Notes under the pieces: model-generated
What the model was told of the DNA's origin: nothing
Seen by the model: the letters and a program-made list of their open reading frames with translations, nothing else
Databases searched by the model: none
Shown here: positions 522-25,010 of the stretch, piece after piece
Position numbering within the stretch: position 1 is the first letter of the stretch
How the letters are laid out: each line of letters opens with the position of its first letter
Program-made: the position numbers and the translations under genes
Origin: Meiothermus sp.
Lineage (GTDB): Bacteria > Deinococcota > Deinococci > Deinococcales > Thermaceae
DNA length: 52,733 bases
Reading direction: 5' to 3'
Assembly: GCF_025060375.1 (NCBI RefSeq)
Contig: NZ_JANXCG010000004.1
Span: 1-52,733, forward strand

Positions 522-1946
522 ATGCTGCTTTTGGGAAAGGTCACCACGTTGAGCGAGTTTGGAGAGGCCGAGGCGGTTTTCGTACAAAATGGCCGGATTG
601 CCGACCTAGGGAGCCGGGAAGAGCTCGGCGCCCGGTACCCAGGTGCCCCCCGGTACACTTTCGAGGCGATCACCCCAGGGCTGCACGAGGCCCATGCCCA
701 CCCCCAGCTCTGGGGACAGCAGCTCGAGAGCCTTGACCTGCAAGGCCTCACCGAGCCAGAAGCGGTGGCCCAAAAGGTAGCCGAGAGGGCCCGCCAGCTA
801 CCCCCGGGCCGCTGGATACGGGGGGCAGGCTACCTGTTCCGGGCATACCCCACCCGCCGTCTGCTGGACGAGGCAGCCCCCCATCACCCGGTCTACCTTC
901 AAAGCCGCGACCTGCACTCGGCCTGGGTCAACAGCCTGGCCCTGTCCCTGGCTGGGATTGGAGCAGAAACCCCCGACCCTCCCGGAGGAGCCCTGCTCCG
1001 CGACGAGCACGGTGCGCCCACCGGCTACCTCCTGGAAAACGCCCAGGCCTTGGTGGGCCGGTTGCTGCCCGCACCAGGGAAGGCCGAGCTGAAGCGGGGC
1101 CTTGAGGACCTGGCGCGGCGGGGCTACACCGCGGTGCACCACATGGGTTGGTGCCGTTTTGAGCTAGCCCTAGCCCTAGCCGACGAGCTCCCCGTGCGGC
1201 TCTGGTGGGCTCTGGACCGCGACCAGTGGCTCGAGGCCCCTGCCGGCTGGCACGGGGACAGGCTGGAGTTTGCGGCGGTCAAGTTTTTCGCCGACGGAGC
1301 CCTGGGCAGCCGCACAGCTTGGATGCTCGAGCCCTACCCAGACGGCTCCACAGGAATGATGCTAGAGGCGCCCGAGCAGATCGAGCAGGAGGGCCGGAGG
1401 GTCCTGGAGGCCGGGCTTGGCCTGACGGTTCACGCAATCGGGACCCGGGCGGTGCGGGAGGTGCTGGAGGTCTTTCACCGCCTAAAGCCTTGGGCGCGGC
1501 GCCCTTTCCGCATGGAGCACGTTCAGCACGTGCGGGACGCGGAACTACCACGCTTCACTGGCCTGCCCCTAGCCCTCTCCCTCCAACCCATGCACCTCCT
1601 AGACGACGCTGAGCTGGTGCGGCGGCACCAACCAGGGCGGGAGGCCGAGGCCTTCCGCCTGCGCGACCTGTGGAACACCGGGTTGCCGGTAGCCTTCGGC
1701 TCGGATGCCCCGGTGATGCCGCCAATTTTCGAGCTCAACCTACGGGCCGCCACCCAGCACCCTCTGAACCCCAGGCAAAACCTGAGCCCACAGCAGGTGC
1801 TCTGGGCCCACACCCGAGGGGCGGCCCTGGCCGCGGGCTGGCTCGAGCACGGCCATATCCGCCCCGGGGCCCCCGCCGACCTCACCCTGTGGGAGGGCGG
1901 ACGGCCGATTGGCCGGGTTTTCGCCGGGCGGCTCGAGGTGGGCTGA
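522..1946 (+). CDS. Amidohydrolase family protein (YtcJ-like, amidohydrolase 3)
   Basis: A 474-residue metal-dependent hydrolase of the amidohydrolase superfamily, resembling the YtcJ/amidohydrolase-3 group, which acts on N-acyl or ring amide bonds. Visible marks are the metal-binding HAHP (residues 58-61) after the TPGLHE strand, KFFADGALGSRTAWM in the middle of the barrel, a later HAIGTRA, MEHVQH, and the catalytic-Asp segment GSDAPV. The C-terminus has the usual return to the small beta domain (PGAPADLTLWEGG). The predicted location is cytoplasmic. A leaderless ATG is favoured because of the -10 box at 510-515. It is followed by a peptidase with its own -10 box, so the two may be separate units. 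The substrate cannot be told from sequence. Confidence 0.88.
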   Translation: MLLLGKVTTLSEFGEAEAVFVQNGRIADLGSREELGARYPGAPRYTFEAITPGLHEAHAHPQLWGQQLESLDLQGLTEPEAVAQKVAERARQLPPGRWIRGAGYLFRAYPTRRLLDEAAPHHPVYLQSRDLHSAWVNSLALSLAGIGAETPDPPGGALLRDEHGAPTGYLLENAQALVGRLLPAPGKAELKRGLEDLARRGYTAVHHMGWCRFELALALADELPVRLWWALDRDQWLEAPAGWHGDRLEFAAVKFFADGALGSRTAWMLEPYPDGSTGMMLEAPEQIEQEGRRVLEAGLGLTVHAIGTRAVREVLEVFHRLKPWARRPFRMEHVQHVRDAELPRFTGLPLALSLQPMHLLDDAELVRRHQPGREAEAFRLRDLWNTGLPVAFGSDAPVMPPIFELNLRAATQHPLNPRQNLSPQQVLWAHTRGAALAAGWLEHGHIRPGAPADLTLWEGGRPIGRVFAGRLEVG

Positions 1947-1974
1947 CCCGGCCCCCGGGGGTGGGGTTGAGGGC

Positions 1975-1980
1975 TATAGT
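1975..1980 (+). promoter_or_regulatory. -10 box TATAGT, leaderless start of dipeptidase
   Basis: TATAGT is followed by 6 nt and then ATG at 1987. This decides against an in-frame start at 1909, which would overlap the preceding gene. Confidence 0.65.
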
Positions 1981-1986
1981 TTAGCT

Positions 1987-3339
1987 ATGCCCAATGCCAT
2001 AGACCGCTTCCTGGAGCAAAACCTCGAGGTCTACCTGCAGGAAACCATCCAGCTTTGTGCCCAGCCCAGCGTCTCGGCCACCGGGGAGGGGGTGCGGGAA
2101 TGCGCCGAGCTGGTGGAGCAAATCCTGCGCAAACACGGCTTTGAGACCCAGAAGTTTGAGGGCTACGGCAATCCAGTGGTGGTGGGCCGGGCCAAGGGCC
2201 GCTCCGAGCGCACCCTGCTCTTCTACAACCACTACGATGTGCAGCCCCCCGAGCCCCTGGAGCTTTGGGACTCGCCCCCCTTCGAGCCACAAATCCGCGA
2301 GGGCAAGCTCTACGCTCGCGGAGCCAAGGACGACAAGGGGGAGTTCATGGCTCGCCTCGCCGCGGTGGACGCGGTGCGGGCTGCCCACGGGGGGGAGTTG
2401 CCCTGTGGGGTGCTCTTCGTGGTAGAGGGCAACGAAGAGGTGGGCAGCCCCGGCATTGCCCGGTTCGTGCAGGACCACCTCGAGCTGCTCCGTTGCGATG
2501 GGGCCATCTGGGAAGAGGGGGGTGTTGACTTCGAAGGGCGACCCGGCACCTCGCTGGGGCGGCGGGGAATTCTGGCCGTGGAGCTCGAGGTCCAAACCCT
2601 CTCCCGCGACGCCCACTCCGGCAACGCCCACATCCTGCCCAGCGCCGCTTGGCGTATGGTGCGGGCCCTGGCCTCCCTCAAAGACGAGAACGAGCGCATC
2701 CTGATTCCCGGCTTCTACGACCATGTGCGCCCCGTTTCGGAGGGAGACCTCGAGCTGCTGCGCCGGCTACCTGACCTCGAGCCCCACCTGCGCGAGACCT
2801 TTGGGGTGCGGGGCTTTGTGAACAACCTGAGCGGCTTCGAGTTGCGCAGGGCCGTCTTCAACCCCACCTGCAACATCCAGGGCATCACCACCGGCTACCA
2901 GGGGCCCGGCAACAAGACCGTTATCCCGGCCAGAGCCTCGGCCAAGCTGGACTTCCGGCTGGTGCCGGACCAAGACCCCACCGACATCCTGCAGAAACTG
3001 CGGGCCCATCTAGACGCCGAGGGCTTCACCGATGTCCGCATCACCCACGCCGACCACATGTTCCCGGCCCGCTCCGACCCCAAGCACCCCCTGGTGCAGC
3101 TCGCGGCCCGGACGGGCGAGGAGGTCTACGGAAAGCCCTACCAGCTCATCCCCCTCACCGGCGGCAGCTCGCCCGTGTATGCCTTTTCCAGGCCCTTGGG
3201 CATCCCGGTAATTGACGCGGGGGTGGGCTTCGGCATCACCAACCGCACCCATGCCCCCAACGAGAACATCCGCCTCCAGGACTTCCACAACGCCGCACGG
3301 CACATCGCCCGCATTCTGGACGGATTTGCAGCTCTCTAA
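1987..3339 (+). CDS. M20 family dipeptidase / carboxypeptidase
   Basis: A 450-residue cytoplasmic di-zinc peptidase of the M20/M28 type (CNDP/ArgE/DapE relatives) that cleaves dipeptides or short peptides. The metal and catalytic segments are NHYDVQPP (His82, Asp84), the bridging Asp in YARGAKDDKGE near residue 115, the catalytic Glu pair in VVEGNEEVGSP near 150, and a late HAPNE supplying a His ligand. The dimerisation (lid) insert carries SRDAHSGNAH. The length is normal for the family. The start at MPNAIDRF is chosen from the -10 box 6 nt upstream. It probably takes part in peptide or amino-acid scavenging. Confidence 0.92.
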   Translation: MPNAIDRFLEQNLEVYLQETIQLCAQPSVSATGEGVRECAELVEQILRKHGFETQKFEGYGNPVVVGRAKGRSERTLLFYNHYDVQPPEPLELWDSPPFEPQIREGKLYARGAKDDKGEFMARLAAVDAVRAAHGGELPCGVLFVVEGNEEVGSPGIARFVQDHLELLRCDGAIWEEGGVDFEGRPGTSLGRRGILAVELEVQTLSRDAHSGNAHILPSAAWRMVRALASLKDENERILIPGFYDHVRPVSEGDLELLRRLPDLEPHLRETFGVRGFVNNLSGFELRRAVFNPTCNIQGITTGYQGPGNKTVIPARASAKLDFRLVPDQDPTDILQKLRAHLDAEGFTDVRITHADHMFPARSDPKHPLVQLAARTGEEVYGKPYQLIPLTGGSSPVYAFSRPLGIPVIDAGVGFGITNRTHAPNENIRLQDFHNAARHIARILDGFAAL

Positions 3340-3424
3340 GACGCGGGAAGCCCCGCTTCCCGGTCGGCTCGGCACCCGAGTGGAAGCACCGGCAGACGCT
3401 TGGCCGGTAGGAGGCTCGAGGCCA

Positions 3425-3453
3425 TTGGCAAGGGACAAACCCTGTGCTACCCT
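3425..3453 (+). promoter_or_regulatory. Sigma-70-type promoter of the CCA-adding enzyme gene
   Basis: TTGGCA (3425-3430), a 17-bp spacer and TACCCT (3448-3453). The ATG lies 13 nt after the -10 box, so the leader would be very short and has no Shine-Dalgarno. Confidence 0.6.
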
Positions 3454-3466
3454 CTAGTCCGGCCCT

Positions 3467-4753
3467 ATGGACTACCGCAGGGTGCTGGAGCGGCTTTCCT
3501 TCCTGCCCGACCTCCATCTGGTGGGGGGTGCGGTCCGGGATATCCTCCTGGGGCTGGAGCCCGAAGACCTGGACTTCGCCACCTCGGCCCCACCCGAGGA
3601 GGTCATTCAGCTTGCCCAGCAGCACGGCCTGGGGGTAGCGCCGACAGGTATTGAGCACGGCACAGTCGCGATCCTAATCGATCACCACCCCTACGAGGTC
3701 ACCACATTCCGGCGCGACGTGGAGACCTACGGGCGAAAGGCCAAAGTGACCTGGGGTCAGAGCATAGAGGAGGACCTGGCCCGCCGCGACTTCACCATAG
3801 GGGCCATCGCCATGGACGCGCAGGGACGGGTTATTGACCCCTATGGTGGCAGACGGGACATGGAGATGGGGGTGATCCGGGCAGTGGGCAACCCCCTCGA
3901 GCGCTTCCGGGAGGACTACCTGCGGGTGATTCGGGCGGGGCGGTTCGCCGCGCGCTACGGCTTCCAGATAGAGGGAGAAACCCTGAAGGCCGCCCGCGAG
4001 GCCGCACCGGAGGTGCTCGCCCATGTGGCCGTGGAGCGGGTCACCGCAGAGTTTAACAAGGCCTTCGCCGCACCGCCACCTGCCCAGCCCAGCCGCTTCC
4101 TCCGCTACCTCTACGAGCTGGGAATCCTCCAGCGGCTCATCCCGGAGTTTGAGGACAACCACCTCCTCCTGCAAAACCCTCACTGGCATCCAGAAGGCGA
4201 CGTGCTCACCCATGTGCTGCAGGTGGTGGACCGCGCCCCTCCGCCCTACCGGTGGCACGCCCTCCTGCACGACATCGGCAAGCGGGACACCGCCCGTTGG
4301 AGGCCGGAGGGTTGGTACAGCTTTCCCGGCCACGAGCGGGTGGGCGCGGCCCTCATCCCCCGCATTGCCCGCGACCTCCGCCTGCCTAACCAGCTGCGCG
4401 ATGAGCTGGTGGTCACCACCGGCTTGCACATGGTCCCGGTTCTGACCAAGCCCACCCCCGCTGCCATCCGACGCTTCCAGGCCCAGGCCGGACCCTACCT
4501 GCAGGCCCTCAAGGCCCTGTTCGAGGCCGACGGGGCCGGGCGCAGGCCCAAGGAGGCCTGGGCCTTCTTCGAGCCTCAGCCGGTACCGGTCCAGCCCGTC
4601 CTGATGGGGCGGCACCTCATTGAACGGGGCCACCGCCCTGGAAAGGAGTTTGGGTCCATCCTGAAGGCCGCCTATGAGCATCAGCTCGAGACTGGGGAAA
4701 CCGATGTGGAAAAGCTCTACCGGGCCGCCTTGGCGCGGTGCTCGCAAGGGTAG
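3467..4753 (+). CDS. cca: tRNA nucleotidyltransferase / poly(A) polymerase family with HD domain
   Basis: A 428-residue class II nucleotidyltransferase that adds or repairs the 3' CCA end of tRNA, or acts as a poly(A) polymerase. The head domain shows LVGGAVRDILLG (residues 18-29) and the catalytic EDLDFAT. The ARRDFTIGAIA motif and the ERFREDYLRVIRAGRFAARYGF neck follow. The C-terminal part has an HD phosphohydrolase signature (HALLHDIGK). Deinococcota are reported to split CCA addition between separate enzymes in some species, so specificity for C, A or both cannot be read from sequence. The tRNA-Asn, -Gln and -Glu genes in this window encode CCA, so repair may be its main job. Confidence 0.9.
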   Translation: MDYRRVLERLSFLPDLHLVGGAVRDILLGLEPEDLDFATSAPPEEVIQLAQQHGLGVAPTGIEHGTVAILIDHHPYEVTTFRRDVETYGRKAKVTWGQSIEEDLARRDFTIGAIAMDAQGRVIDPYGGRRDMEMGVIRAVGNPLERFREDYLRVIRAGRFAARYGFQIEGETLKAAREAAPEVLAHVAVERVTAEFNKAFAAPPPAQPSRFLRYLYELGILQRLIPEFEDNHLLLQNPHWHPEGDVLTHVLQVVDRAPPPYRWHALLHDIGKRDTARWRPEGWYSFPGHERVGAALIPRIARDLRLPNQLRDELVVTTGLHMVPVLTKPTPAAIRRFQAQAGPYLQALKALFEADGAGRRPKEAWAFFEPQPVPVQPVLMGRHLIERGHRPGKEFGSILKAAYEHQLETGETDVEKLYRAALARCSQG

Positions 4754-4788
4754 GCCACAAGCCCATGGCCGCAAAGCGCTCCCCGAGC

Positions 4789-4794
4789 TATGCT
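4789..4794 (+). promoter_or_regulatory. -10 box TATGCT, leaderless start of alpha/beta hydrolase
   Basis: TATGCT, then 6 nt, then ATG at 4801. It supports the start at MSIPVVFLH over an upstream in-frame ATG at 4738 that overlaps the preceding gene. Confidence 0.6.
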
Positions 4795-4800
4795 CGAGGT

Positions 4801-5517
4801 ATGTCCATACCCGTGGTCTTCCTACACGCCTTCCCCTACGGCCCAACCATGTGGGAGCCCCAGCTCGAGGCGGTTCGGGGCCACCCCGTCCTGCTGCCGG
4901 ACATCCTGGGCTTTGAGAGCCTGGAACGGGCCGCAGCCCACGTGCTGGTGGAGATGGACCAGCGGGGCTGGCAGAAGGCGGTCTTCGTGGGCCTTTCAAT
5001 GGGGGGGTACGTGATCTTCAGGCTCTGGAACCTGGAGCCGGAGCGATTTTCGGGCATGGTGCTGGCCGATACCCGGGCCACCCCAGATACCCCCGAGGGA
5101 CAGCGGCTGCGGCTAGAACAGGCCGAGCGGGTGCGAAAGGAGGGGATGTCCTTCTTCCCCGAAGCCACCCTCAAGAGCCACCTAGGCCCCACCAGCCACG
5201 CCCAGCGGCCTGAGGTGGTGGCATGGGCACGCCAAGCCCAGCTCCAGGCCGAGCCCCTTCGCGTGGCCAAAAGCCTGGAGGCGCTGGCCCAACGCCCCGA
5301 CTCCACCCCCCTGCTCCCCAGCATCTCGGTACCGACCCTGGTGCTGGTGGGGGAGGAGGATACCCTAACCCCTCCCGGTGAGGCCCGGAACATGGCCGCA
5401 CGGATTCCGGACAGCCGGATGCTCATCCTGCCCGAGGCCGGGCACCTGTCCAGCCGGGAGAACCCCAAGGCCTTCAACACCGCCCTGCGCGGCTTTCTGC
5501 GCGAGCTTCAGGTGTAG
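4801..5517 (+). CDS. Alpha/beta-hydrolase fold protein
   Basis: A 238-residue serine hydrolase of the alpha/beta fold, similar in size to small esterases and 3-oxoadipate enol-lactonase-like enzymes. The nucleophile elbow is GLSMGGY (Ser66). An acid is offered by LVGEEDTLTP and the catalytic His by EAGHLSSRE near the C-terminus. The oxyanion loop is FLHAFPYG near residue 8. There is no signal peptide, so it is cytoplasmic. Its 3' end overlaps by 10 bp the 3' end of the convergent gene that follows. The substrate is unknown. Confidence 0.88.
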   Translation: MSIPVVFLHAFPYGPTMWEPQLEAVRGHPVLLPDILGFESLERAAAHVLVEMDQRGWQKAVFVGLSMGGYVIFRLWNLEPERFSGMVLADTRATPDTPEGQRLRLEQAERVRKEGMSFFPEATLKSHLGPTSHAQRPEVVAWARQAQLQAEPLRVAKSLEALAQRPDSTPLLPSISVPTLVLVGEEDTLTPPGEARNMAARIPDSRMLILPEAGHLSSRENPKAFNTALRGFLRELQV

Positions 5518-8270
5518 GGGCCGGTCTGGCTAAGCCGGAGGGACAAGCAGTCCTCCAGAGCCAGGGGGGACTGGGTCTGCAACCGCTCCCGCAGGGCCTC
5601 CTGGGGCCATATCCGGCCCAGCACGCGGCCGAGCTGGGCCCGGTAAGGGGTGGGCAGCCCGGCGCTGCTCTGCAGCTTCTTCCACGCCGCCTCCTCCTGA
5701 CCCAGGCCCAGGAGGGCCTGGGTCTCCAGCCCCAGCTTCCAGGCCTGCACCCCGGGGTCCTGCAGCTCCCCGATCTGGACCACCTGGGCCAACGCCTCGG
5801 CCCACTTCTCCTGCCTGGCCAGGGTCTCGGCGTAGCCCAGCCGGGCCTGAGCCTGGAAGTAGGGATCGTTTTGCTTCAGATAGCCCTGCATCATCTGCTC
5901 GGCCTGGTCGGCGGGGAGCAACAAGGAGAGCTTCAGGGCCACGTCTATCGCCAAGGCGACGTAGCGGTCACCGGGGAGTTGCTTGGTGGAAAGCTCGCGC
6001 TCGAGCTCCCGCAGAATGCGCAGGGCATCAGGGGCCTGCTGTCCGCCCACATAGGGCGGCAGGTAGGGCAGCCCACAGGCCCGCACCCAGTAGGCCACCG
6101 CAATGCGGTAGAGGGTGCGGCGGTGCCGGTAATGGGCCTCTTCTGGACGCTCCTTCACCTCGCGCAGGTAGCGCTCGGCCTGGGCCAGGAGCTCGAGGGC
6201 CTCCAGGGGCCGGCCCCGGGCCAGCTCGAGCACGCTGGCCTCGCTCATGGCTCGAGCCCGGATAAACTCGTCGGTGGCCTCCTGGATGGACTGGTAGAGG
6301 CACCGCTCCGCCTCAGCAAAGTTGCCGATGCGCCTCAGCACGCTGCCGAAGCGGGCCCGTACCCGGGCCACCTCCTCGGGCGGGGCCCCAGAAGACTCCA
6401 AGGCGGCCAGTCCCTGGCGCATATGGGCCTCAGCCTCGTAGACCCGCCCGATCCGCAGGAGCAGGTCCCCCGACTGGTAGCGGGCCCGACCCACCAGAAG
6501 GGGGTCGTGGCTGACCTGGCGTAGCGCGCTCAAGGCCTCCTCAAAGCGGCCCGCGTCCTTGGCCACCAGCCCCTGCCAGAGCCGCACCCGGTCAGCCAGG
6601 AAGGGGGGAATAGGCAGGGCCAGGGCCTGTTGCACATAGGCCTCGGCCTGAGCGTAGTCGCCCTGCCAACGTTCCACGGCGGCCCAGACCAAAAGCCCCT
6701 CAGCCCCAATCTCGCCCGAGAGCGCCTCCGGAGGGGGCAAAAGCTCCAGGGCTGCGGTGAAGTTCCCCGCGTCCACCCGGGCCTCAGCGGCCTTGACCCT
6801 GGCCCAGGCCTGGATGCTGGAGTCGGCCGAGCGGAAGAGAACCTCCAGGGCCTCCAGGGCCTCAGGGTGGGCGTACTGGCCCAGCACCGCCCGGTAGCGC
6901 ACCACCGCCATAGCCAGCCGCTCCCGCTCGGCAGAGGGCCAGCCCTTGGACTCAGACCAGAGGTTGGGCAGAAGGGCCAGGCGGCTTGGGTCTTCGGAAA
7001 GAAGCTCCAGCAGCCGATCCAAGCGACCAGCCCCCCAGGCGTGGTGGAGCTGGCGGAAGAGGTCGTTCTTGAAGTAGTCCAGGGCCAGAAGGTGAAGCTT
7101 GCGGGCCTCCCGCTCAGGCACGCTGGGCAGGAGGGTCCGCAGGGCAGGCCGGACCTTGCCCTCGCCCAAGGGGGCCAAAAGGGCCCGTTCAGCCTGGGAA
7201 AGGTGCTCCAGTCCTTTACCTAAAGCCTTCTCCAGAAGGGGTACGGGAATCCCCGGGTCAGCCTCCGGCGAGAGCACCGCCAGCGCGTGCAGGATGGGCC
7301 TCAGAGCGGTGTCCTGGGCCAGGTTGGGCGCGCTGCCCTGGGTCTGAGCTGCCTCCAGCAGCACCAGCCGGGAAAGCTCGGCGAAGTTGCGCCCAGCCTG
7401 GTTGACCAGCGCCTCCACCCGCTCAGGGGGCAGGTCGGGCAGCCGGTCTTTCACGTAGCGGCGGGCCTCGGCCCGGCTAGGGGCCGAAAGGGGGTGCCAG
7501 GCCAAGTTGGGCGGAGGCTCGGAGAGCCCAGCCAAGAAGGGAATGGTAAGCCGGCGGAGCAGCGGCTCGATCCAGGCCGAGAGACCCACCGGGTTGCCCT
7601 GGGCATCGCGCAGGCTCAGACCGCCAAGCTGCCCTTCCCTCTCAGCCCGAAGCAGAAGGGGCCTTCCGCAGGCGTTGAGGGCCCGGGCCAGCTCGTTTCT
7701 GAGCTCGTCCTGCAAAGCAGCCTGCAGGGCGTAGGGCTGGGTGGGGGAAAGCTGGGAGAGGATGCCCTCCAGTTCCACCCCCAACCGCTCAGCCAGAGGG
7801 TGCAGGTGGGGGGCCAGCTCCCCTCCCAGGTTCACCATCAGGCAGTCAGGCACCGCCCGCTGGACCGCTGAGAGCAGCACCCCCTTGCCAGTGGCCGGCC
7901 CCCCCACCACCACCATCTGCGGCTTATCGCCCTGCTCTAGGGCCCGCAAAAAGCGGCGGAAAAGCCTGCGCTTGTCCCGCCCGAGGGCCCGCCGGGCCGA
8001 CTCCAGGGCCAGCTCTGAGGGAAGGGGCGGTGGCTCCAGCCCCACCTCGGTGTACAAATCGCAGAGAACCTCAAACAGCCTCAGCTTCTCCTCTGGGCTT
8101 CCCAGGTCCTTGTACAGGATGTTGCGCACCGTTCCAGCCCGCCCACCCCGCTCGGCCACCGCAGCCTCGAGCCAGCGCAAGCTCCCCTTCTTTCCTCGGT
8201 GGTCGCGCCCGGTAAGGTGGGGGCGCAGGGTCTCCAGGTGGGCCTGCCAGAGTGTACTCACCTCTCCCAC
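5508..8270 (-). CDS. Large P-loop ATPase with C-terminal TPR-like repeats
   Basis: A 920-residue protein with a Walker A motif GGPATGKG at residues 123-130, an AAA/STAND-type NTPase region to about residue 330, and a long alpha-helical tail of TPR-like repeats (about 400-900; for example GDYAQAEAYVQQAL, GRFEEALSALRQV, GNFAEAERCLYQSI). The first 90 residues are small and helical and could bind DNA or a partner. The layout recalls signal-transducing STAND ATPases and MalT-like regulators, but I see no clear C-terminal HTH. It starts with GTG; an in-frame GTG three codons later (8259-8261) is also possible, because a TATTTA -10-like box ends at 8273. Tandem 11-bp repeats lie in its promoter region. 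The function is not known. Confidence 0.75.
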   Translation of the reverse strand: MGEVSTLWQAHLETLRPHLTGRDHRGKKGSLRWLEAAVAERGGRAGTVRNILYKDLGSPEEKLRLFEVLCDLYTEVGLEPPPLPSELALESARRALGRDKRRLFRRFLRALEQGDKPQMVVVGGPATGKGVLLSAVQRAVPDCLMVNLGGELAPHLHPLAERLGVELEGILSQLSPTQPYALQAALQDELRNELARALNACGRPLLLRAEREGQLGGLSLRDAQGNPVGLSAWIEPLLRRLTIPFLAGLSEPPPNLAWHPLSAPSRAEARRYVKDRLPDLPPERVEALVNQAGRNFAELSRLVLLEAAQTQGSAPNLAQDTALRPILHALAVLSPEADPGIPVPLLEKALGKGLEHLSQAERALLAPLGEGKVRPALRTLLPSVPEREARKLHLLALDYFKNDLFRQLHHAWGAGRLDRLLELLSEDPSRLALLPNLWSESKGWPSAERERLAMAVVRYRAVLGQYAHPEALEALEVLFRSADSSIQAWARVKAAEARVDAGNFTAALELLPPPEALSGEIGAEGLLVWAAVERWQGDYAQAEAYVQQALALPIPPFLADRVRLWQGLVAKDAGRFEEALSALRQVSHDPLLVGRARYQSGDLLLRIGRVYEAEAHMRQGLAALESSGAPPEEVARVRARFGSVLRRIGNFAEAERCLYQSIQEATDEFIRARAMSEASVLELARGRPLEALELLAQAERYLREVKERPEEAHYRHRRTLYRIAVAYWVRACGLPYLPPYVGGQQAPDALRILRELERELSTKQLPGDRYVALAIDVALKLSLLLPADQAEQMMQGYLKQNDPYFQAQARLGYAETLARQEKWAEALAQVVQIGELQDPGVQAWKLGLETQALLGLGQEEAAWKKLQSSAGLPTPYRAQLGRVLGRIWPQEALRERLQTQSPLALEDCLSLRLSQTGPYT

Positions 8271-8277
8271 AATAAAT

Positions 8278-8318
8278 ACACCCTACTGCGGTGTAGTGTA
8301 GCAAGCAACACCCTACTG
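8278..8318 (-). repeat. Tandem 11-bp operator-like repeats upstream of the ATPase gene
   Basis: On the plus strand ACACCCTACTG occurs at 8278-8288 and again at 8308-8318, identical and 30 bp apart (about three helical turns). Between them lies GTGTAGTGTAGC (8291-8302). One copy overlaps the -10-like box of the downstream minus-strand gene, and the other overlaps the stop codon of the gene before it. This suggests a site for a regulator acting on the 920-residue ATPase gene. Confidence 0.55.
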
Positions 8319-9017
8319 GACCAGCTCCACCTCGAGGTTCTTGTTCTCCGGTATCCGGATGGGGGCGCTCAGGCTCTGGTAGCCAGGGGCCTCAACCCGC
8401 AGGGTGTACTCCCCCGCCTCGAGCAGAAAGCTGGAGCGCTCGAGCCGGCTACTGGCCACCTCCTCTTCGCCCCGAAAAACGCGAACCGTAGGGTTGGGCG
8501 CATTCACGCGAACGCTCAGAAGACAGGGGCAGACCGGCTCCACCTCGCGCACAGCGCCCGAGGTAGGGGCCTCGGGTGCCGGGGGGACTGGCTCAGGCGA
8601 GGGGAAGGCTGGCGCAGTGGGCTCGGGCGTCGGCACCGCAGGCGGGGCGGCCTGGGGCTCTTCCGAAGGATTGGGAATGGTCCCCGAGGCGAGCAGGTTG
8701 GGGCTGCCGCTGTTCAGAAGCACAACGCTGCCAAAGCCCGCCAGCCCCAGCAGAACGGCCAGGGCCGCCGCCCAGCCCGCCAGGCGGCTCCTGAGGTTTA
8801 GCAGGGCCCAAACCAGAAGCAAAACCCCCAGCACCCCCAGTACCCAGAAAACCAGGTGGCCGTATTGCTGGTGCAACCAGGCCCCTCCCAGGCCAAAAAG
8901 ACCCACCAGAAGGCCAAATCCCATCCAGGCCAGCCCACCCCTGGACAGGCGGGTAAGGCCAAAGAGCACGAACAATACCCCTAAAACACCCAAAATCCAT
9001 AGGAACAGCGCGCTCAT
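8313..9017 (-). CDS. Membrane protein with C-terminal PEGA domain
   Basis: A 234-residue protein with four hydrophobic helices (about residues 3-21, 29-47, 53-72 and 80-101), a Pro/Glu/Ala-rich linker (about 115-160), a CPC motif and a C-terminal beta domain (about 168-234). The domain carries the features of PEGA repeats (NAPNPTVRVFRGEEEV, LEAGEYTLRVEAPGY). PEGA domains are usually extracytoplasmic and bind surface polymers or partners. The start ATG at 9017 is chosen because AAAGGAG lies 5 nt upstream; an in-frame start at 9041 has no such support. It lies just upstream of the 920-residue ATPase gene on the same strand and may be cotranscribed with it. Confidence 0.78.
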   Translation of the reverse strand: MSALFLWILGVLGVLFVLFGLTRLSRGGLAWMGFGLLVGLFGLGGAWLHQQYGHLVFWVLGVLGVLLLVWALLNLRSRLAGWAAALAVLLGLAGFGSVVLLNSGSPNLLASGTIPNPSEEPQAAPPAVPTPEPTAPAFPSPEPVPPAPEAPTSGAVREVEPVCPCLLSVRVNAPNPTVRVFRGEEEVASSRLERSSFLLEAGEYTLRVEAPGYQSLSAPIRIPENKNLEVELVQ

Positions 9018-9050
9018 CCCCACTCCTTTCGCAAAAACCACGCACCAGAT

Positions 9051-9056
9051 ACTCTA
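9051..9056 (-). promoter_or_regulatory. -10-like box TAGAGT of PEGA-protein gene
   Basis: TAGAGT on the minus strand lies 33 nt before the ATG at 9017, which leaves room for a short leader containing the AAAGGAG ribosome site at 9023-9029. I see no good -35 element. Confidence 0.35.
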
Positions 9057-9099
9057 GCATCCCTCGATGAGATGGACTTCGCCAAACAATAAGGAAGGA

Positions 9100-9114
9100 C
9101 CCCGGACTCCGGGG
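9100..9114 (-). terminator. Probable terminator of the epimerase/aminotransferase operon
   Basis: The GC hairpin CCCCGG-ACT-CCGGGG lies 20 nt after the epimerase stop. Reading on the minus strand it is followed by a pyrimidine-rich run (TCCTTCCTTATTG), a weak U-tract. Confidence 0.55.
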
Positions 9115-9134
9115 CGGCGGTTCCTGCCAAACCT

Positions 9135-10727
9135 TCAGGCCTGGGGCGTGATCATCGGCGTTTTTTCGTCGGTAGTCTGAAGGTGGGCCCGCTCGATGAG
9201 TTCCCTCTCCCAGCCCAGATAGTACTGCTTGACAACCTCAGAGGCGGTATCTTCGGTCAGGTACTTGACGTTAGAGTACAGGGGGGCCTTGTAGTCCTTC
9301 ACCCTACCGCTCCGCAGCGCCTCAATCACCTGCCGGATGCCCTGCTCCACCGTCCACTGGGGTTCAAAGCCCAGCACGTTGCGAATCTTGGAGAAGTCCA
9401 CCCGGTAGTTGCGCCGGTCCCCATCCCGACCGGAGTCAATCAGCTCAGCATCCGGCACCAGCTTCTTAACCAGCTCCCCCACCATGCCCAGCGTCATGTT
9501 GCCCTCATTGCTGCCCACGTTGAAGGTCTGGTTGTGCACCAGCTCCTTGGGGGCCTCCACGGCCAGGAGAACCGCCCGGGCAGCGTCGTCCACATGGACG
9601 AAGGGCCGCCACTGGTCCCCTCCGAATACGGTGATCTTCTTCTCCACCACTGCCTTGGCGGTAAGCAGGTTGACCACCAGGTCAAACCGGGTGCGGCCCG
9701 AAAGGCCGTAGATGGTGCCAAAGCGCAGGATCACCACTGAGAAATCATCGCTTTGCAACTTGTGCAAAACCTGTTCGGAGGCAATCTTGCTTCGGGCGTA
9801 AAGGGAAACCGGGTTCAGGCTGCTGCGCTCGTTGAGGACCATGTCGCTGGCCCCGTAGACCGAGCAGGTACTGGCGAAGATAAAGCGGCGCACCCCCATC
9901 CCCTTGGCTATCTCGGCGATGGTGCGGGTAGCCACCAGGTTGATCTCGATGGTGAGGTTTTCGTCCAGAGCGCAGGCCGGGTCGCCCACCAGACCGCCCA
10001 GGTGGACCACCGTATCCACCCCCCGCATGGCCTGCACCACCTTGTCGACCTGGCGGAAGTCAGCCTGGATAATCTCCAGGTTGGGGTGGTGCAGCACGTC
10101 GGCGATGGGCTCCTTGCCAAACATCAGCAGGTCCAGCAAGCGCACCTGGTAGCCGCGCTCGAGCAGGCGCGGCAGGAGGGCCGATCCGATGTAGCCCGCC
10201 CCCCCTATGACCAGGATGGTGCGGTCGTTGCCGCTAGGGGAAGGAGCGGGGTTGCCCTTACCCTCGGAGCGGGCCTTGCGCTGGAGCTCCAGGAGGTACC
10301 AGTAGTGCACCCAGGCCCGGGCACCAAGGACAAGCCCCAGGGTGAAGAGGAGGCTCAGCAAGACCACCGCGCTGGGGGGGTCGGCAATGAAGGGCAACAT
10401 GAACACCGTAAAGCCGTAGAGGAGGTAGGTCAAAACCACAGCCTGGGCCACCACCAGCATCTTGTAGCGGCCCCGGTAGGCCCGGCTGCGGGTGTAGAAG
10501 CCGCTGGCCGCAAAGACCACGAAGCTTAGCGGCATCAGCAAGGCAAGGCCCTGCAGAAACGCCGGAAGGTACTGCCCGAGTATGCCCGGGCCAGCCCCAG
10601 AACCGTAGGCCAGCAGGAGGTACAGGCCCGCGGCCGCAGCAAAGCTAAGGGCCACCATCACCTGATCGGCCAAGACCCGCAGAACTACATCCGCACTGAA
10701 GCGCAATCCCTTGAGGTTCTGCAACAT
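9135..10727 (-). CDS. Membrane-anchored NAD-dependent sugar epimerase/dehydratase (SDR)
   Basis: A 530-residue two-part protein. Residues 1-150 form about four membrane helices, like the N-terminal domain of WbpM/CapD-type or polyprenyl-phosphate sugar transferases. From about residue 168 an extended SDR domain follows with Rossmann motif VIGGAGYIGSALL, STCSVYG, catalytic YARSK, and FVHVDDAARAV, typical of UDP-glucose 4-epimerase-like enzymes. The SDR part is not the CapD type normally joined to such a membrane domain. It lies 9 nt after the DegT aminotransferase gene, with GAGGAGG overlapping that gene's stop, so they are cotranscribed and probably translationally coupled. Its likely role is processing a nucleotide sugar at the membrane for surface polysaccharide or S-layer glycan. 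Confidence 0.85.
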   Translation of the reverse strand: MLQNLKGLRFSADVVLRVLADQVMVALSFAAAAGLYLLLAYGSGAGPGILGQYLPAFLQGLALLMPLSFVVFAASGFYTRSRAYRGRYKMLVVAQAVVLTYLLYGFTVFMLPFIADPPSAVVLLSLLFTLGLVLGARAWVHYWYLLELQRKARSEGKGNPAPSPSGNDRTILVIGGAGYIGSALLPRLLERGYQVRLLDLLMFGKEPIADVLHHPNLEIIQADFRQVDKVVQAMRGVDTVVHLGGLVGDPACALDENLTIEINLVATRTIAEIAKGMGVRRFIFASTCSVYGASDMVLNERSSLNPVSLYARSKIASEQVLHKLQSDDFSVVILRFGTIYGLSGRTRFDLVVNLLTAKAVVEKKITVFGGDQWRPFVHVDDAARAVLLAVEAPKELVHNQTFNVGSNEGNMTLGMVGELVKKLVPDAELIDSGRDGDRRNYRVDFSKIRNVLGFEPQWTVEQGIRQVIEALRSGRVKDYKAPLYSNVKYLTEDTASEVVKQYYLGWERELIERAHLQTTDEKTPMITPQA

Positions 10728-10736
10728 CGCTCCTCC

Positions 10737-11927
10737 TCAGCGCGTGGCCTCCTCCATAACCCTCTCCACCGCGTCCGCAACAGCCCGCATGTGCTCCAGG
10801 CCCAGCGTAGGGTGCACCAGGAACATCAGCGCGGTCTCCCCCAGTTCCTTGGCCACCGGCAACCGCTCGGCGGGCTGCCATCCCCGTCGGGTGAAGGCTT
10901 TCTCTAGGTAGACCTCGCTGCAACTACCCGTGCTGCAGGGTATTCCCGCCTCTGAAACGGCTAGCATAATCCGGTCGCGGTTCCAACCCGGCTTGAGCAT
11001 CTCCGGGCGCACATAGACGTAGTACTTGTAGTAGGCGTGGTACAAGTCGGCTGGCACCTCGGGAACCCGCAGGGCAGGAATCTGACGGAAGCGCTCGCTC
11101 AGGTAGTGTGCGTTTTCCCGGCGCTTTTCCACCCAGGCGTCCAGCTTGCGCAGGGCAACCCGCCCTATGGCTGCTTGTACCTCGAGCATCCTCCAGTTGG
11201 TGCCAAAGTCCTCGTGCAGCCAGCGATAGCCCGGGGGGTGCTGGCGGCGGTAGACCGCGTCGTAGCTTTTGCCGTGGTCCTTGAAGCTCCAAGCCCGCTC
11301 CCACAGCGCATCGTCGTTCAAGGTGAGCATGCCCCCCTCGCCGCCGGTGGTCAGGATCTTGTCCTGGCAGAAGCTCCAGGCCCCAGCGTGACCGATGGAG
11401 CCCACGCTTCGGCCCTTGTAGCGGGCTCCGTGGGCCTGGGCGCAGTCCTCTATCACCCAGAGGTTGTACCTTCGCGCCAGGGCCATAATGCCGTCCATAT
11501 CCGCAGGCCATCCCGCCAGGTGCACCACGACGATGGCTTTGGTGCGGGGGGTGATGACCTTCTCAATGCTCTCTGGGGTAATCAGACCGCTGTTGCGGTC
11601 GACATCGGCGAAGACCGGCCGCGCCCCTCGCATCACCGCCGCGCTGGCCGAGGCGATGAAGGTGCGGGGGGTGGTGATCACCTCGTCTCCCTCCCCTATC
11701 CCCATGGCGTAGAGGGCCAGCTCGAGGGCAACCGTGCCGTTGTGCAGGGCAACGGCGTGCTTGGTACCCACGTACTGGGCGAACTCCCGCTCAAACAGGC
11801 GGCCTTCTTCTCCAGTCCAGTAGTTCACCTTGCCCGACCGGAGAACCCTTACCGCCGCTTCAATCTCATCCGCCTCGAAATGGGGCCAAGGGGCAAAGGG
11901 TGGGGCGCTGGAAAGGTTGCTGACCAT
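10737..11927 (-). CDS. DegT/DnrJ/EryC1 family PLP-dependent sugar aminotransferase
   Basis: A 396-residue fold-type I aminotransferase that transfers an amino group, usually from glutamate, to a keto-sugar nucleotide. The PLP lysine is Lys190 in SFCQDKILTTGGEGG. The preceding VIEDCAQAHGARYKG and HLAGWPADM are typical of the family. The start ATG at 11927 has GAGGAG 7-8 nt upstream; a longer in-frame reading to 12032 is rich in codons without family match and is rejected. It forms an operon with the membrane-anchored epimerase that follows. Together they suggest production of an amino-sugar for the cell surface. Confidence 0.9.
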   Translation of the reverse strand: MVSNLSSAPPFAPWPHFEADEIEAAVRVLRSGKVNYWTGEEGRLFEREFAQYVGTKHAVALHNGTVALELALYAMGIGEGDEVITTPRTFIASASAAVMRGARPVFADVDRNSGLITPESIEKVITPRTKAIVVVHLAGWPADMDGIMALARRYNLWVIEDCAQAHGARYKGRSVGSIGHAGAWSFCQDKILTTGGEGGMLTLNDDALWERAWSFKDHGKSYDAVYRRQHPPGYRWLHEDFGTNWRMLEVQAAIGRVALRKLDAWVEKRRENAHYLSERFRQIPALRVPEVPADLYHAYYKYYVYVRPEMLKPGWNRDRIMLAVSEAGIPCSTGSCSEVYLEKAFTRRGWQPAERLPVAKELGETALMFLVHPTLGLEHMRAVADAVERVMEEATR

Positions 11928-11990
11928 GGGAAGCTCCTCACGGGGGGAACGCCCCCATCTGGGATACGAGACCCAGGGTAGGGCAGTGGG

Positions 11991-12106
11991 CGTTATGGGC
12001 GCGTTATTCGCCCAAAGATGCGGCACATACATGCATTGTTGCGCTCGTTACAGCCCCTAGCAAGGGTTCTTGGCCGGGCAACACAGCGGTAACGTGGTCG
12101 ATAACG
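11991..12106. repeat. Five CGTTAY hexamers in the divergent intergenic region
   Basis: CGTTAT occurs at 11991 and 12002 and CGTTAC at 12046 on the plus strand. The inverse forms GTAACG and ATAACG lie at 12089 and 12101. Pairs 11-12 bp apart sit near each divergent gene, in opposite orientation, with spacings of about 43-44 bp across the middle. This looks like an arrayed binding site between the aminotransferase operon and the AcuI-type reductase. Confidence 0.45.
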
Positions 12107-12136
12107 TCGGCCCCGGCAAGGCTGCTCACCTTCGTG

Positions 12137-12142
12137 TATTTT
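12137..12142 (+). promoter_or_regulatory. Extended -10 box TGTATTTT, leaderless start of reductase
   Basis: TATTTT (12137-12142) with an upstream TG, then 6 nt, then ATG at 12149. It supports the start at MQTFRALVV over an in-frame ATG at 12134, which would lie upstream of the box. Confidence 0.65.
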
Positions 12143-12148
12143 GTTGCC

Positions 12149-13132
12149 ATGCAGACCTTCAGAGCCTTGGTGGTGGAATCGGGCGACCCCCAAAGCGCGC
12201 GCATCCGGCAGGCCAGGCTGGACGAGTTGCCGCCAGGGGATGTGCTGGTGCGGGTGGCCTACAGCAGCCTCAACTACAAGGACGGACTGGCCATCACGGG
12301 AGCAGGCAAGGTGATCCGCAGCTTCCCCATGGTGCCAGGCATCGACCTGGCCGGGGTGGTGCTGGAGTCGGATGCGCCCGACTTCAAGCCAGGGGACCCG
12401 GTGCTGCTTACCGGCTATGGCATCGGCGAGCGGCACTGGGGTGGAATGGCCGAGCTGGCCCGGGTGCGCTCGGAGTGGCTGGTGCCCCTACCCCAGGGGC
12501 TCACGCTCAAAGAGGCGATGGGGATTGGGACCGCGGGGTTTACCGCCATGCTGGCAGTAATGGCCCTCGAGGCCCACGGGGTCGACAAATCCCGGGAGCT
12601 GCTGGTTACCGGAGCGGCCGGCGGGGTGGGCAGCCTGGCGGTGGCCCTTCTGGCCCAGCTGGGCTACCGGGTGGTGGCCTCCACGGGCCGCCTGGGCGAG
12701 GAGGGCTACCTGCGGTCGCTGGGGGCCGGGGAGGTCATTGAACGGAGCCTGCTCAGTGCGCCTGCCCGGCCCCTGGAGTCCGAACGGTTCGCCGGTGCGG
12801 TGGACACGGTGGGGGGTGCGGTGCTGGCAGGCGTTCTACCCCGGGTGGCCTATGGGGGCAGCGTGGCCGCCTGCGGCAACGCCGGGGGGGCGAGGCTCGA
12901 GACCACCATCTTCCCCTTCATCCTGCGGGGGGTCAACCTGCTTGGGATAGACTCGGTGATGTGCCCCAGGGAGAAACGCCTTCTAGCCTGGCAACGGCTG
13001 GCTCAGGAGCTGCCCAAGCCCCTCTTGGGGGCTATGGTGCAAACCGTGGAGCTGGAAGAGGTACCCGCCCTGGCCCAGGCCATCCTGCAGGGCCAGGTAC
13101 GGGGGCGGGTGGTGGTGCAGCTTTCAACCTAG
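12149..13132 (+). CDS. AcuI/YhdH-type acrylyl-CoA reductase, quinone oxidoreductase family
   Basis: A 327-residue medium-chain dehydrogenase/reductase without structural zinc. The N-terminal SSLNYKDGLAITGAGKVIR and PMVPGIDLAGVV closely match the YhdH/AcuI group, which reduces acryloyl-CoA to propionyl-CoA with NADPH. The nucleotide-binding segment is VTGAAGGVGSLAVALLAQLGY near residue 150. A late GVNLLGIDSVMCP is also typical of AcuI. The length is normal for the family. It is divergent from the sugar operon and convergent with cmk, 4 nt apart. It acts in the cytoplasm, probably in propionate or acrylate metabolism; the exact substrate is inferred from family only. Confidence 0.9.
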   Translation: MQTFRALVVESGDPQSARIRQARLDELPPGDVLVRVAYSSLNYKDGLAITGAGKVIRSFPMVPGIDLAGVVLESDAPDFKPGDPVLLTGYGIGERHWGGMAELARVRSEWLVPLPQGLTLKEAMGIGTAGFTAMLAVMALEAHGVDKSRELLVTGAAGGVGSLAVALLAQLGYRVVASTGRLGEEGYLRSLGAGEVIERSLLSAPARPLESERFAGAVDTVGGAVLAGVLPRVAYGGSVAACGNAGGARLETTIFPFILRGVNLLGIDSVMCPREKRLLAWQRLAQELPKPLLGAMVQTVELEEVPALAQAILQGQVRGRVVVQLST

Positions 13133-13136
13133 GCGG

Positions 13137-13769
13137 CTACGGGTCGCGCAGGTGTTCCAGCACAGCTTCCACCACCTCTTCCAGCCCAATTCCGCTGGTG
13201 TCCAGAACCACCGCGTCGGGGGCAGGGACGCTTTGCTTCTGGTCGGCGGCGTCACGCCTCAGGATATCTCCCAGAACGGTCGCAAAATCCGCCTCCCGCT
13301 CGGAAACCCGGCGGCGGGCCCGCACCTCGGGGCGCGCGGTCAGGTAGAACTTGTGGCGGGCCTGGGGGAAGACGACGCTGCCCATGTCCCGCCCGTCCAC
13401 CACAAAGGGTGGAGCAATCCGCCGCAACACCTGGTTGACGTAGGCCCGCACACCGGGGCGCTGGGCCACCGCCGAAACCTGGCGGTCCACCTCCAGGCTG
13501 TGTAGGGCTGCGCTGACCTCCTCCCCATCCAAGTAGATTCGGTTCTCCTGAGGGGTAGGCCTGAGCTCAAGGCGGTGCTGCTCTAGATGCCCCTCAATCT
13601 CCTCTGGAGAAGCACCTTTTCGCAAACCCAGAAGGGCCACCGCGCGGTACAGCAGGCCGCTGGAAACATAGGGAATACCAAGGCGCTCCGCCACCCGCCG
13701 GGCTACGCTGGTCTTGCCCGAGGCAGAGGGGCCGTCTATGGTGATGATAAACGGAGCCCTAGCATCCAT
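13137..13769 (-). CDS. cmk: Cytidylate kinase
   Basis: A 210-residue (d)CMP kinase that makes CDP and dCDP from CMP and dCMP. The P-loop is [15 protein letters not shown] near residues 12-26. [33 protein letters not shown] and the Arg-rich lid ([12 protein letters not shown]) are the standard family segments. The start ATG at 13769 overlaps the last codons of aroA; a GTG at 13784 is also in frame but longer than the family needs. Close packing behind aroA is common in bacteria and implies cotranscription. Confidence 0.95.
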
Positions 13770-15054
13770 CGCGAGGAGCTTCACCGCGAAGCCGGCTTAG
13801 GTCTTCCCAAAAGCTCGGGAAGGAGATGCTGGCCCACTGAGCCTCCCGGACCACCACCCCCTTGGGCAAACCGCAGACCGCAAAGGCCATGGCAATGCGG
13901 TGGTCGTGGAAGGGTTCCACCACACCCTCCGAGCGCACCCCACCCCCGCGAATCCGCAGCCAGTCTGGCCCCGCCTCCACCCCTACCCCCAGGTGCTCTA
14001 GGTTCTTAGCGATAGCGGTGAGCCGGTCGGACTCCTTAACCCGCAGCTCGGAAAGGTTGGGGATGTAGGTCTCTCCCTCAGCCCAGGCCGCAGCTGCGGC
14101 CAGAACAGGCACCTCGTCCACCATCAGGGGAATGAGATCCGGGTCCACCGAGACCCCTTTGAGCATCGAGGAGCGGGCCCGTATGGAGCCCACAGGCTCA
14201 CCCTCCTCCCCTTCGGTCACCTCCCAGGCGAGGTCGGCCCCCATCTCCCTGAGCACCGTGAGCAATCCGGTACGGGTAGGGTTCAGACCCACCCCTTCCA
14301 AGACCACCTCCGAATCGGGGGTAATCAGGGCCGCCACCAGGAAAAAAGCCGCGCTGCTGAAGTCACCGGGAACGGTGAGGTCCTTGGCAGCAAAGGGGTC
14401 AGCCCGGCGGGTGCGGACCAGGCGGCCCTCTACCTCGAGGGGCAGCCCGTAGTGCCGAAAGAGCCGCTCGGTGTGGTCGCGGGTGGGCGCCGGCTCTACC
14501 ACCTCGGTATCCTCCTCGGCAAAAAGCCCTGCCAGCAAAACGGCACTTTTGACCTGGGCGCTGGCTACGGGAAGCTCGTAGTGGATTCCCCTAAGCCCCC
14601 CGCCCCGAACCGCAAGCGGGGCCAGCCGCCCGTTTTCACGCCCCTCTATCCGTGCCCCCATCTGTCGAAGGGGCGCAGTAACCCGGCCCATAGGCCGCCG
14701 CCGCAACGAGTCATCCCCGCTGAGCACTGCAAAAAACTCCTGCCCCGCCAGCAACCCAGCCAAAAGGCGCATCAGGGTCCCAGCGTTGCCGCAGTCCAGC
14801 ACATCGGAGGGCTCCTGCAGGCGCAAGCCAATTCCCCGTATACGGAAATGCTCGCCCACCTCGGTAATCTCGGCCCCGAGCTGGCGCATGGCCCGGGCGG
14901 TGGAAAGGGTGTCCCCAGCCTTGAGGGGGTGGTACAGGGTGCTCTCGCCTTGGGCCAACGACCCCAGCATCAGGCCGCGGTGGGTTACCGACTTGTCACC
15001 AGGCACCCGCAGCCGGCCCCGAAGGGAGCGGGTGGGGGGAATTCGCAGCTCCAT
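13759..15054 (-). CDS. aroA: 3-phosphoshikimate 1-carboxyvinyltransferase (EPSP synthase)
   Basis: A 431-residue enzyme of the shikimate pathway that joins phosphoenolpyruvate and shikimate-3-phosphate. The motifs are [17 protein letters not shown] (residues 18-34), [15 protein letters not shown] with the GNAGT signature, [20 protein letters not shown], and [10 protein letters not shown] with DHRIAMAF near the end. The start is ATG at 15054; a TTG two codons upstream is also in frame. A consensus TATAAT precedes it with only about 11 nt between. It overlaps cmk by 11 bp. Confidence 0.96.
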
Positions 15055-15065
15055 AACCAAGCGGG

Positions 15066-15094
15066 ATTATAGCCCCTAAAAGCCCTTTCCAAAA
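15066..15094 (-). promoter_or_regulatory. Promoter of aroA-cmk
   Basis: On the minus strand a perfect TATAAT (15066-15071) is preceded at 17 bp by TTTTGG (15089-15094). The start codon lies 11 nt downstream, which implies a leader of only a few bases. Confidence 0.65.
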
Positions 15095-15156
15095 GCATTC
15101 AGCCGGTTACCCAGCTTTCACACCTCTCTTTCAAGATTGCCAAACACCTCCGCCCT

Positions 15157-15162
15157 TATAGT
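15157..15162 (+). promoter_or_regulatory. -10 box TATAGT of the DHH phosphoesterase gene
   Basis: TATAGT precedes the ATG at 15173 by 10 nt, and a purine-rich GGAAGG lies between. It is divergent from the aroA promoter, with about 85 bp between the two -10 boxes. Confidence 0.5.
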
Positions 15163-15172
15163 GGAAGGTGCT

Positions 15173-16150
15173 ATGGATTCCTCGCTAAATGGCCCTGAGC
15201 CGCGCTACCGGGAAAAGGTGCACACCGTGGCCGGCACCCTGCGGGAGCTCGAGGGGCCCATCTTCATCGTTTCTCACGTAGATCCAGACGGCGACGCCAT
15301 CGGCTCGTCCTTGGGCCTCTACCGAGCCCTGAAGGCACTGGGCAAGAGGGCCTTCTGGATTGCCGACCCCCCACGCTACCTGCGCTTTTTGGCGCGAGAG
15401 GAGGAGTACAGCGACCCGGTGGAACGCTTGCCTGAAGGGGCCACCCTGGTCGTGCTGGACGCCGCCGAACCGAACCGCGTGGCCGGGGCTCCAGTGGAGG
15501 GTTTTGTCATCAACATTGACCACCATGGCACCAACCCCCGATTCGGCTACCTCTCGGTGGTGGACCCCTCCAAGGCCGCCACTGCCCAAATCGTCAAAGA
15601 CCTGATTGACGCCCTGGGCGTGCAGTGGAGCCCTGAGATCGCCACGCCGGTGCTCACCGGACTCATCACCGACACAGGAAACTTCCGCTTTGCCAACACC
15701 ACCCCCGAGGTGCTGCGCGCCGCGGCCGAACTGGTGGGATATGGGGTCAGGCTGGCCGAGCTCACCGACCGCTTGCAGTGGCGCCCGGCGGGCTACTTCA
15801 AGGCCCTAGGGGCGGTGCTCTCCACCGTGGAGTTCCACTTTGGCGGGCTCCTGGTCACAGCCCACCTGCCGCCGGGGCTGAGCGTGGAGGACTCCGACGA
15901 CTTCGTCGGCTTTATCCGCTACGCTGAGGGCAGCCAGATCGCGGTTTTTCTAAGGGAGCGTGAAGAAGGGGTCAAGCTCAGCATCCGTAGCCGGGGCGGG
16001 GTCTCCGCCCAGGCGGTGGCGGTGCGGCTGGGCGGAGGGGGCCACGTCCCCGCCGCTGGGGCCACCCTGCGCGGGGTAAGCCTCGAGGAGGCCTACCGCA
16101 GGGCAAAGGAGGCGGTGCGGGAGGAGTTGGAGCGCACGGGATACCTCTGA
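15173..16150 (+). CDS. DHH/DHHA1 phosphoesterase, NrnA-like (nanoRNase / pAp phosphatase)
   Basis: A 325-residue phosphoesterase with an N-terminal DHH domain (SHVDPDGDAIGSSLGL near residues 35-50, VVLDAAEPNR, INIDHHGTN near 108-116, and TGLITDTGNFRF near 160-171). The C-terminal DHHA1 domain carries the glycine-rich GGGGHVPAAGATL motif. NrnA-type enzymes degrade 2-5 nt RNAs and dephosphorylate pAp, a product of sulfur assimilation. Its place directly upstream of the SAM-regulated methionine operon fits the pAp role, but the two are separated by a promoter and a riboswitch. The ATG at 15173 is chosen from the -10 box and GGAAGG. Confidence 0.92.
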   Translation: MDSSLNGPEPRYREKVHTVAGTLRELEGPIFIVSHVDPDGDAIGSSLGLYRALKALGKRAFWIADPPRYLRFLAREEEYSDPVERLPEGATLVVLDAAEPNRVAGAPVEGFVINIDHHGTNPRFGYLSVVDPSKAATAQIVKDLIDALGVQWSPEIATPVLTGLITDTGNFRFANTTPEVLRAAAELVGYGVRLAELTDRLQWRPAGYFKALGAVLSTVEFHFGGLLVTAHLPPGLSVEDSDDFVGFIRYAEGSQIAVFLREREEGVKLSIRSRGGVSAQAVAVRLGGGGHVPAAGATLRGVSLEEAYRRAKEAVREELERTGYL

Positions 16151-16163
16151 CCCAGGCCCTTTA

Positions 16164-16192: not shown

Positions 16193-16221
16193 GTCAGGGA
16201 ACCTTGCCTTCTGGCAAGCGG

Positions 16222-18540
<2,319 letters not shown>

Positions 18541-25009: not shown

Positions 25010-25010
25010 C

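Follow-up and report, generated by a model that had tools for sequence, protein, structure and literature searches.

The palindrome CTCGAG is over-represented throughout the genome of Meiothermus sp. (NCBI RefSeq assembly GCF_025060375.1), from which we analyzed a stretch of 52,733 nucleotides (contig NZ_JANXCG010000004.1, positions 1 to 52,733; hereafter the window), and its frequency exceeds both Markov and codon expectations. Across Thermaceae and related families of Deinococcota, the word forms a highly iterated palindrome (HIP) shared by the lineage. We consider it fairly probable that CTCGAG is maintained as the HIP of this group, being probably methylated by an orphan methyltransferase (P0001) and accumulating where the protein sequence allows. 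This reading draws on the enrichment itself, its distribution over reading frames and intergenic DNA, its phylogenetic spread, the retention of in-frame sites between species and the complementary distribution of orphan enzymes.

Results

The window contains 79 CTCGAG sites, while its dinucleotide shuffles (n = 100) contained 14.7 on average and 26 at most. The observed/expected ratio (O/E) in the window was 5.5, 3.8, 2.7 and 1.19 with Markov models of order 1, 2, 3 and 4, respectively. The order-4 value is uninformative, because about half of all TCGA (54%) sits inside CTCGAG and such a model absorbs the word itself. The whole genome (G000; 2.39 Mb in 96 contigs) carries 3,407 CTCGAG (1.42 per kb), compared with 1,252 copies of the reversed word GAGCTC and about 293 per strand of GTCGAG, which has equal composition and differs by one base. 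Markov, codon-shuffle and replication-origin tests on the genome were done with a 643-kb sample, in which 934 CTCGAG gave an order-2 O/E of 3.9 and an order-3 O/E of 2.8, and CTCGAG had the highest order-2 O/E among the 64 hexamer palindromes. Thus, at order 3, one of the orders suggested in the original prediction, the sampled ratio stays well above 1. All 15 sites it listed for the first 5 kb were found where it placed them, and the word recurs through the rest of the window and the genome. No 8- or 10-bp palindrome extending CTCGAG was found; its flanks are merely G/C-biased with few A/T.

With regard to reading frames, genes were called by codon likelihood in this analysis, and in the codon test synonymous codons were shuffled within genes, preserving both proteins and codon usage. 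A simple explanation of the enrichment would be translation alone: CTC and GAG rank among the preferred codons where GC is high, and the dipeptide Leu-Glu is common. Indeed, frame 0 holds 752 of the 896 coding sites in the sample (84%), and about 501 of the 896 are expected after codon shuffling. The remaining excess is clear (O/E 1.79, z 20) and is also seen in frames 1 and 2 (per-frame O/E 1.6, 10.9 and 2.6 for frames 0, 1 and 2) and in intergenic DNA, where 38 sites stand against 15 expected from base composition (about 2.6-fold). Moreover, equivalent codon pairs are depleted (GTC GAG 0.19, CTC GAC 0.50), sites are retained between species more than expected, and O/E reaches 4–10 in relatives of lower GC. 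The shuffle thus rules out codon usage as a full explanation, which we regard as highly improbable, though it survives as a partial one: Leu-Glu codon use genuinely contributes to the number of sites, yet CTCGAG is favored and its TCGA-containing neighbors are disfavored. The prediction that codon use is insufficient therefore stood when its refutation by Leu-Glu pairs was tried. Its argument from several reading frames and intergenic DNA was overstated for the first 5 kb, where two sites are intergenic and the other 13 all read Leu-Glu in frame. It holds across the window as a minor component (66 sites in frame 0, 6 in frame 1, 3 in frame 2 and 4 intergenic). The prediction also left unmentioned that the other NTCGAN words are depleted.

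To place the window in its lineage, CTCGAG and the composition-matched GTCGAG were counted in 111 genomes of the phylum. Among the groups, g1, the genus of the window, we take to be Meiothermus, g4 Thermus and f5 Trueperaceae, and among single genomes G108 is presumably Truepera and G009 Marinithermus. The CTCGAG:GTCGAG ratio is 5–19 in all 18 genomes of the window's genus. It is 3–6.5 in genera g2 and g3, about 30–370 in Thermus, 22–55 in f3 (G005–G008), about 70–90 in f2/g7 (G002, G003) and about 1 in most f5 genomes. The high ratio in Thermus arises because GTCGAG is nearly absent there. It is evident that f3 and f2/g7 are the densest, with 6–8 CTCGAG per kb, or about one per 150 letters. 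Public records (JANXTZ010000081.1, JAAFJQ010000224.1, JANYHH010000023.1, JAAFIG010000011.1) identify f3 as uncultured Deinococcales. Nine f3 stretches (150 kb) contained 972 CTCGAG against 39 expected, about 25 times, while the ratio to GTCGAG in other phyla (76 loci, 1.18 Mb, from the same search) was 0.59. The codon-shuffle O/E was 4–10 in f3, G003 and G096.

The sampled stretches of the dense f3 and f2/g7 genomes also show an unusually wide palindrome avoidance, with GGCGCC, TCGCGA, CTGCAG and TGGCCA among many missing palindromic hexamers. GAGCTC is nearly missing in G005–G008, G002 and G003 (between 2 and 25 copies in each genome, such as 4 in 4.4 Mb).

In f3, CTCGAG occupies 70% of Leu-Glu pairs, 42% of the possible frame 1 positions and 47% of the possible frame 2 positions. 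The corresponding values are 85%, 35% and 65% in G003, sampled over about 20 kb only, and 30%, 6% and 6% in the window's genome. Leu-Glu itself occurs at 2.3 times the expectation from amino acid composition in f3, 2.2 times in G003 and 1.3 times in the window's genome. The reverse dipeptide Glu-Leu stays at 0.8–0.95 in the same comparison, and Leu-Glu in controls of other phyla averages 0.91 (standard deviation 0.22, maximum 1.49). CTCGAG density in these uncultured relatives has thus altered their proteins, doubling Leu-Glu. Between G000 and G033 (77–78 ortholog pairs, in-frame sites; G030, with 13 pairs, was left out as having too few), conserved Leu-Glu keeps CTCGAG in 62–65% of cases, compared with 37–43% expected if CTC and GAG were each retained independently (p = 6e-6 and 1e-4). 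Intersite distances are near exponential (coefficient of variation, CV, 0.89 and 1.08), and therefore spacing is not what is selected and no fixed spacing is kept.

As for enzymes, a gamma-class adenine methyltransferase gene, P0001, lies outside the window (G000:C23:3879-5552). It carries motif I DPAFGGGVF and the catalytic GNPPF (NPPF/Y), matches PF02384, PF22837 and PF07669 (N6_Mtase, Eco57I) above cut-off, and has M.BseCI and M.TaqI among its solved relatives by sequence. Its neighbors are glmS and an unrelated 304-aa open reading frame (ORF); no endonuclease adjoins it, and genes of the P0001 type occupy conserved loci at which no partner recurs. An endonuclease partner was also sought beside plasmid homologs of P0001, where the neighbors were unannotated or, in one distant case (24% identity), of the XamI family. 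A second type, P0002, is remotely homologous to P0001 (489 columns, hhalign probability 99.6%). P0002 is very probably a PaeR7I/XhoI methyltransferase specific for CTCGAG, because its plasmid homologs (50–55% identity) adjoin genes annotated as 'PaeR7I family type II restriction endonuclease', and in G108 it adjoins an XhoI-family (PF04555) gene decayed by stops. That gene (G108:C1:1095688-1096226) is split next to an intact CTCGAG-type methyltransferase, and the locus seems to be a restriction-modification system decaying to an orphan enzyme.

P0001-type genes occur in 14 of the 18 members of the genus and P0002-type genes in the other four (G027, G031, G039, G043), none having both or neither. 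The XhoI-family endonuclease (PF04555) is absent from the window's genome and the whole genus, and therefore these enzymes are orphans there; such endonucleases occur in just 4 of the 111 genomes. In f5, the median CTCGAG:GTCGAG ratio is about 2.2 with a P0001- or P0002-type enzyme and about 1.06 without (p = 7e-5 by genome, 0.018 by genus). This association is the best evidence for a link to methylation; it is correlational, with kinship handled by genus means.

A beta-class enzyme, P0003, adjoins intact XhoI-family endonucleases in G013–G015. At these loci (G013:C125, G014:C417, G015:C8) the endonuclease is accompanied by a beta-class (TSPPYW) methyltransferase instead of the gamma-class PaeR7I type, so that, as judged by sequence, two unrelated methyltransferases pair with the same kind of endonuclease. 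In addition, a beta-class methyltransferase ORF of about 300–345 aa, present at G000:C74:5679-5873 and in most genomes of the window's genus, g2 and g3, is kept in nearly all non-Thermus Thermaceae and is a further candidate for an orphan enzyme of universal occurrence.

The first 5 kb of the window, where the enrichment was initially noticed at 723-4869, is not a locus of its own. Its 15 sites compare with 7.1 predicted by genome density (P(≥15) = 0.007, for one 5-kb window among about 480), and 104 non-overlapping windows had a mean of 7.0 CTCGAG and a variance of 7.9. Because the cluster is a Poisson tail of the genome-wide density, we rejected a local feature; the region codes for ordinary metabolic functions. 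Five sites, all in frame 0, fall at 723..728 (Leu-Glu), 1230..1235, 1326..1331, 1842..1847 and 1932..1937, the first in an amidohydrolase gene (522-1946). Five more in frame 0 follow at 2023..2028, in an M20 peptidase gene (1909-3339), and at 2479..2484, 2584..2589, 2749..2754 and 2776..2781. The site at 3415..3420 is intergenic by the gene calls used. Frame 0 sites lie at 3896..3901, in a gene of the poly(A) polymerase / CCA-adding type (3467-4753), and at 4685..4690. The site at 4793..4798 is intergenic or in the start region of the next gene, and that at 4864..4869 is in frame 0 of an alpha/beta hydrolase gene (4738-5517). The remaining 64 sites are spread over 6000..52651. Few lie at 46000-52000, a region which holds a minus-strand gene for an antiporter of the Mrp/MBH type; across the final 6 kb of the window, AT skew climbs to about 0.3.

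Discussion

In the reading that we favor, CTCGAG in the window's genome would be N6-adenine methylated, probably by the orphan gamma-class P0001. Changes that make or preserve CTCGAG would then be favored, so that the word may accumulate where the protein sequence permits; repair directed by methylation could drive this, or else selection acting on the methylated site. Separable from this would be a second layer, found both here and in Thermus, namely an avoidance of TCGA, as by a TaqI-like activity, from which CTCGAG is exempt.

Several points weigh against this reading. The four P0002 genomes may form one clade, so that the complementarity of the two enzyme types may reflect one or two events. 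The specificity of P0001 for CTCGAG is inferred from where the enzyme occurs and from its remote homologs. The densest genomes (f3 G005–G008, f2 G002–G003) have no P0001-, P0002- or P0003-type enzyme, save a P0002 homolog of 27% identity in G008, and searches with PF07669, PF02384, PF01555, PF00145 and PF02086 found no enzyme common to them all. Likewise, g2 (ratio 6–6.5) and G073 (ratio 21) lack all three types, while G098 has a P0001-type enzyme at a ratio of 1.05. Part of the absolute excess is, moreover, ordinary Leu-Glu codon use. Searches with these Pfam families, five in number, and with three proteins as queries did not yield a single methyltransferase common to the dense genomes.

The TCGA layer might also stand alone, that is, TCGA would be selected against by TaqI-like cutting and CTCGAG, protected by its methyltransferase, would be left over rather than favored. 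Thermus is known to possess such a system, TaqI, which recognizes TCGA (PMC5587805). Thermus genomes (G044–G070) have 1,400–2,500 CTCGAG and just 5–63 GTCGAG per strand, with TCGA nearly absent outside CTCGAG; the codon-shuffle O/E there is 0.61 for CTCGAG and 0–0.18 for the other NTCGAN words tested. Most Thermus have an orphan P0003-type enzyme, without the endonuclease that its relatives adjoin. In the window's genome as well, total TCGA is not raised and other NTCGAN words (GTCGAG, CTCGAA, GTCGAC, CTCGAC, ATCGAG, TTCGAG) have codon-shuffle O/E of 0.16–0.60. However, CTCGAG itself exceeds its codon-shuffle expectation in this genome and still more in f3. In G034 its O/E is 4.0 with no depletion of GTCGAG, CTCGAC, ATCGAG or TTCGAG. 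The Thermus pattern, moreover, is the same in G045, G047 and G059, which gave no P0003 match. We therefore regard this explanation as rather unlikely. As a separate observation, the first 50 kb of the Thermus phage P23-45 has few TCGA (29).

Alternatively, a nucleoid, chromosome-organizing or DNA-uptake protein could read CTCGAG, which would be selected for with methylation secondary. The density, intergenic presence and conservation of the word are compatible with this, and Blow et al. (2016; PMC4752239) described an orphan CTCGAG methyltransferase of Nocardia whose motif is concentrated near dnaA, at the origin of replication. The enzyme resembles ours in being an orphan with the same motif, conserved within a family, but CTCGAG is here enriched throughout the genome, and no origin-like cluster was seen in the 643 kb sampled, from which dnaA was not recovered. 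Uptake sequences are 9–12 bp long. In contrast to such longer, non-palindromic repeats, CTCGAG is a 6-bp palindrome with near-Poisson spacing (CV 0.9–1.1) and no extended flanking consensus. A binding or uptake role is thus quite improbable.

Comparison with known systems supports the proposed analogy to HIP1 of cyanobacteria. The likeness lies in an enrichment that is genome-wide and genus-wide, survives order-3 and codon-shuffle correction, is present in all frames and intergenic DNA, and is accompanied by candidate lone methyltransferases. Elhai (2015; PMC4390886) described HIP1 (GCGATCGC) and alternate HIPs in 97 cyanobacteria together with lone methyltransferases without a restriction partner, and mentioned neither Thermus, Meiothermus, Deinococcus nor CTCGAG. 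Like CTCGAG, the cyanobacterial HIPs are short GC-rich palindromes over-represented in and between genes, variable between relatives and linked to orphan methyltransferases of matching specificity, which are candidates here. On the other hand, CTCGAG belongs to another phylum, is another word with a 6-bp core lacking the fixed 8-bp extension, and is overlaid on TCGA avoidance. Its density of up to 6–8 per kb in f3 exceeds the 0.5–2.5 per kb of cyanobacterial HIPs (rCCGGy excepted; PMC4390886), and the gamma-class candidates look adenine-specific, whereas the model of that paper requires methylated C next to G.

Restriction sites tend to be avoided. The PaeR7I/XhoI systems share the recognition sequence, and P0002 is homologous to their methyltransferases, but the genus lacks the XhoI-family endonuclease and CTCGAG is enriched. 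Thermus TaqI-type systems share the TCGA core and fit its strong avoidance in Thermus, but would account only for the depletion of CTCGAG neighbors and not for its excess. No earlier account of CTCGAG over-representation in Thermaceae was found in the open-access literature searched, though this is weak evidence.

We tentatively suggest, as a possibility that we lean somewhat against, a broader scheme: a sequence-specific drive, possibly coupled to methylation, turns near-CTCGAG words into CTCGAG, and in uncultured Deinococcales it has saturated most of the permissible positions and rewritten proteins, while in cultured Thermaceae non-orthologous orphan enzymes swap, keeping the methylation.

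Finally, we know of no agreement on the function and origin of HIP1 since its first description. An independent HIP in a second phylum, with cultivable hosts (Meiothermus-type, and Thermus as a TCGA-avoiding contrast), would make the cause testable. Within the lineage the enrichment grades from near-neutral in most f5 genomes, by way of an intermediate level in the window's genus, to near saturation in f3 and f2/g7, with swapped orphan enzymes. CTCGAG is also a case of a DNA-level pressure that measurably changes the dipeptide frequencies of a proteome.

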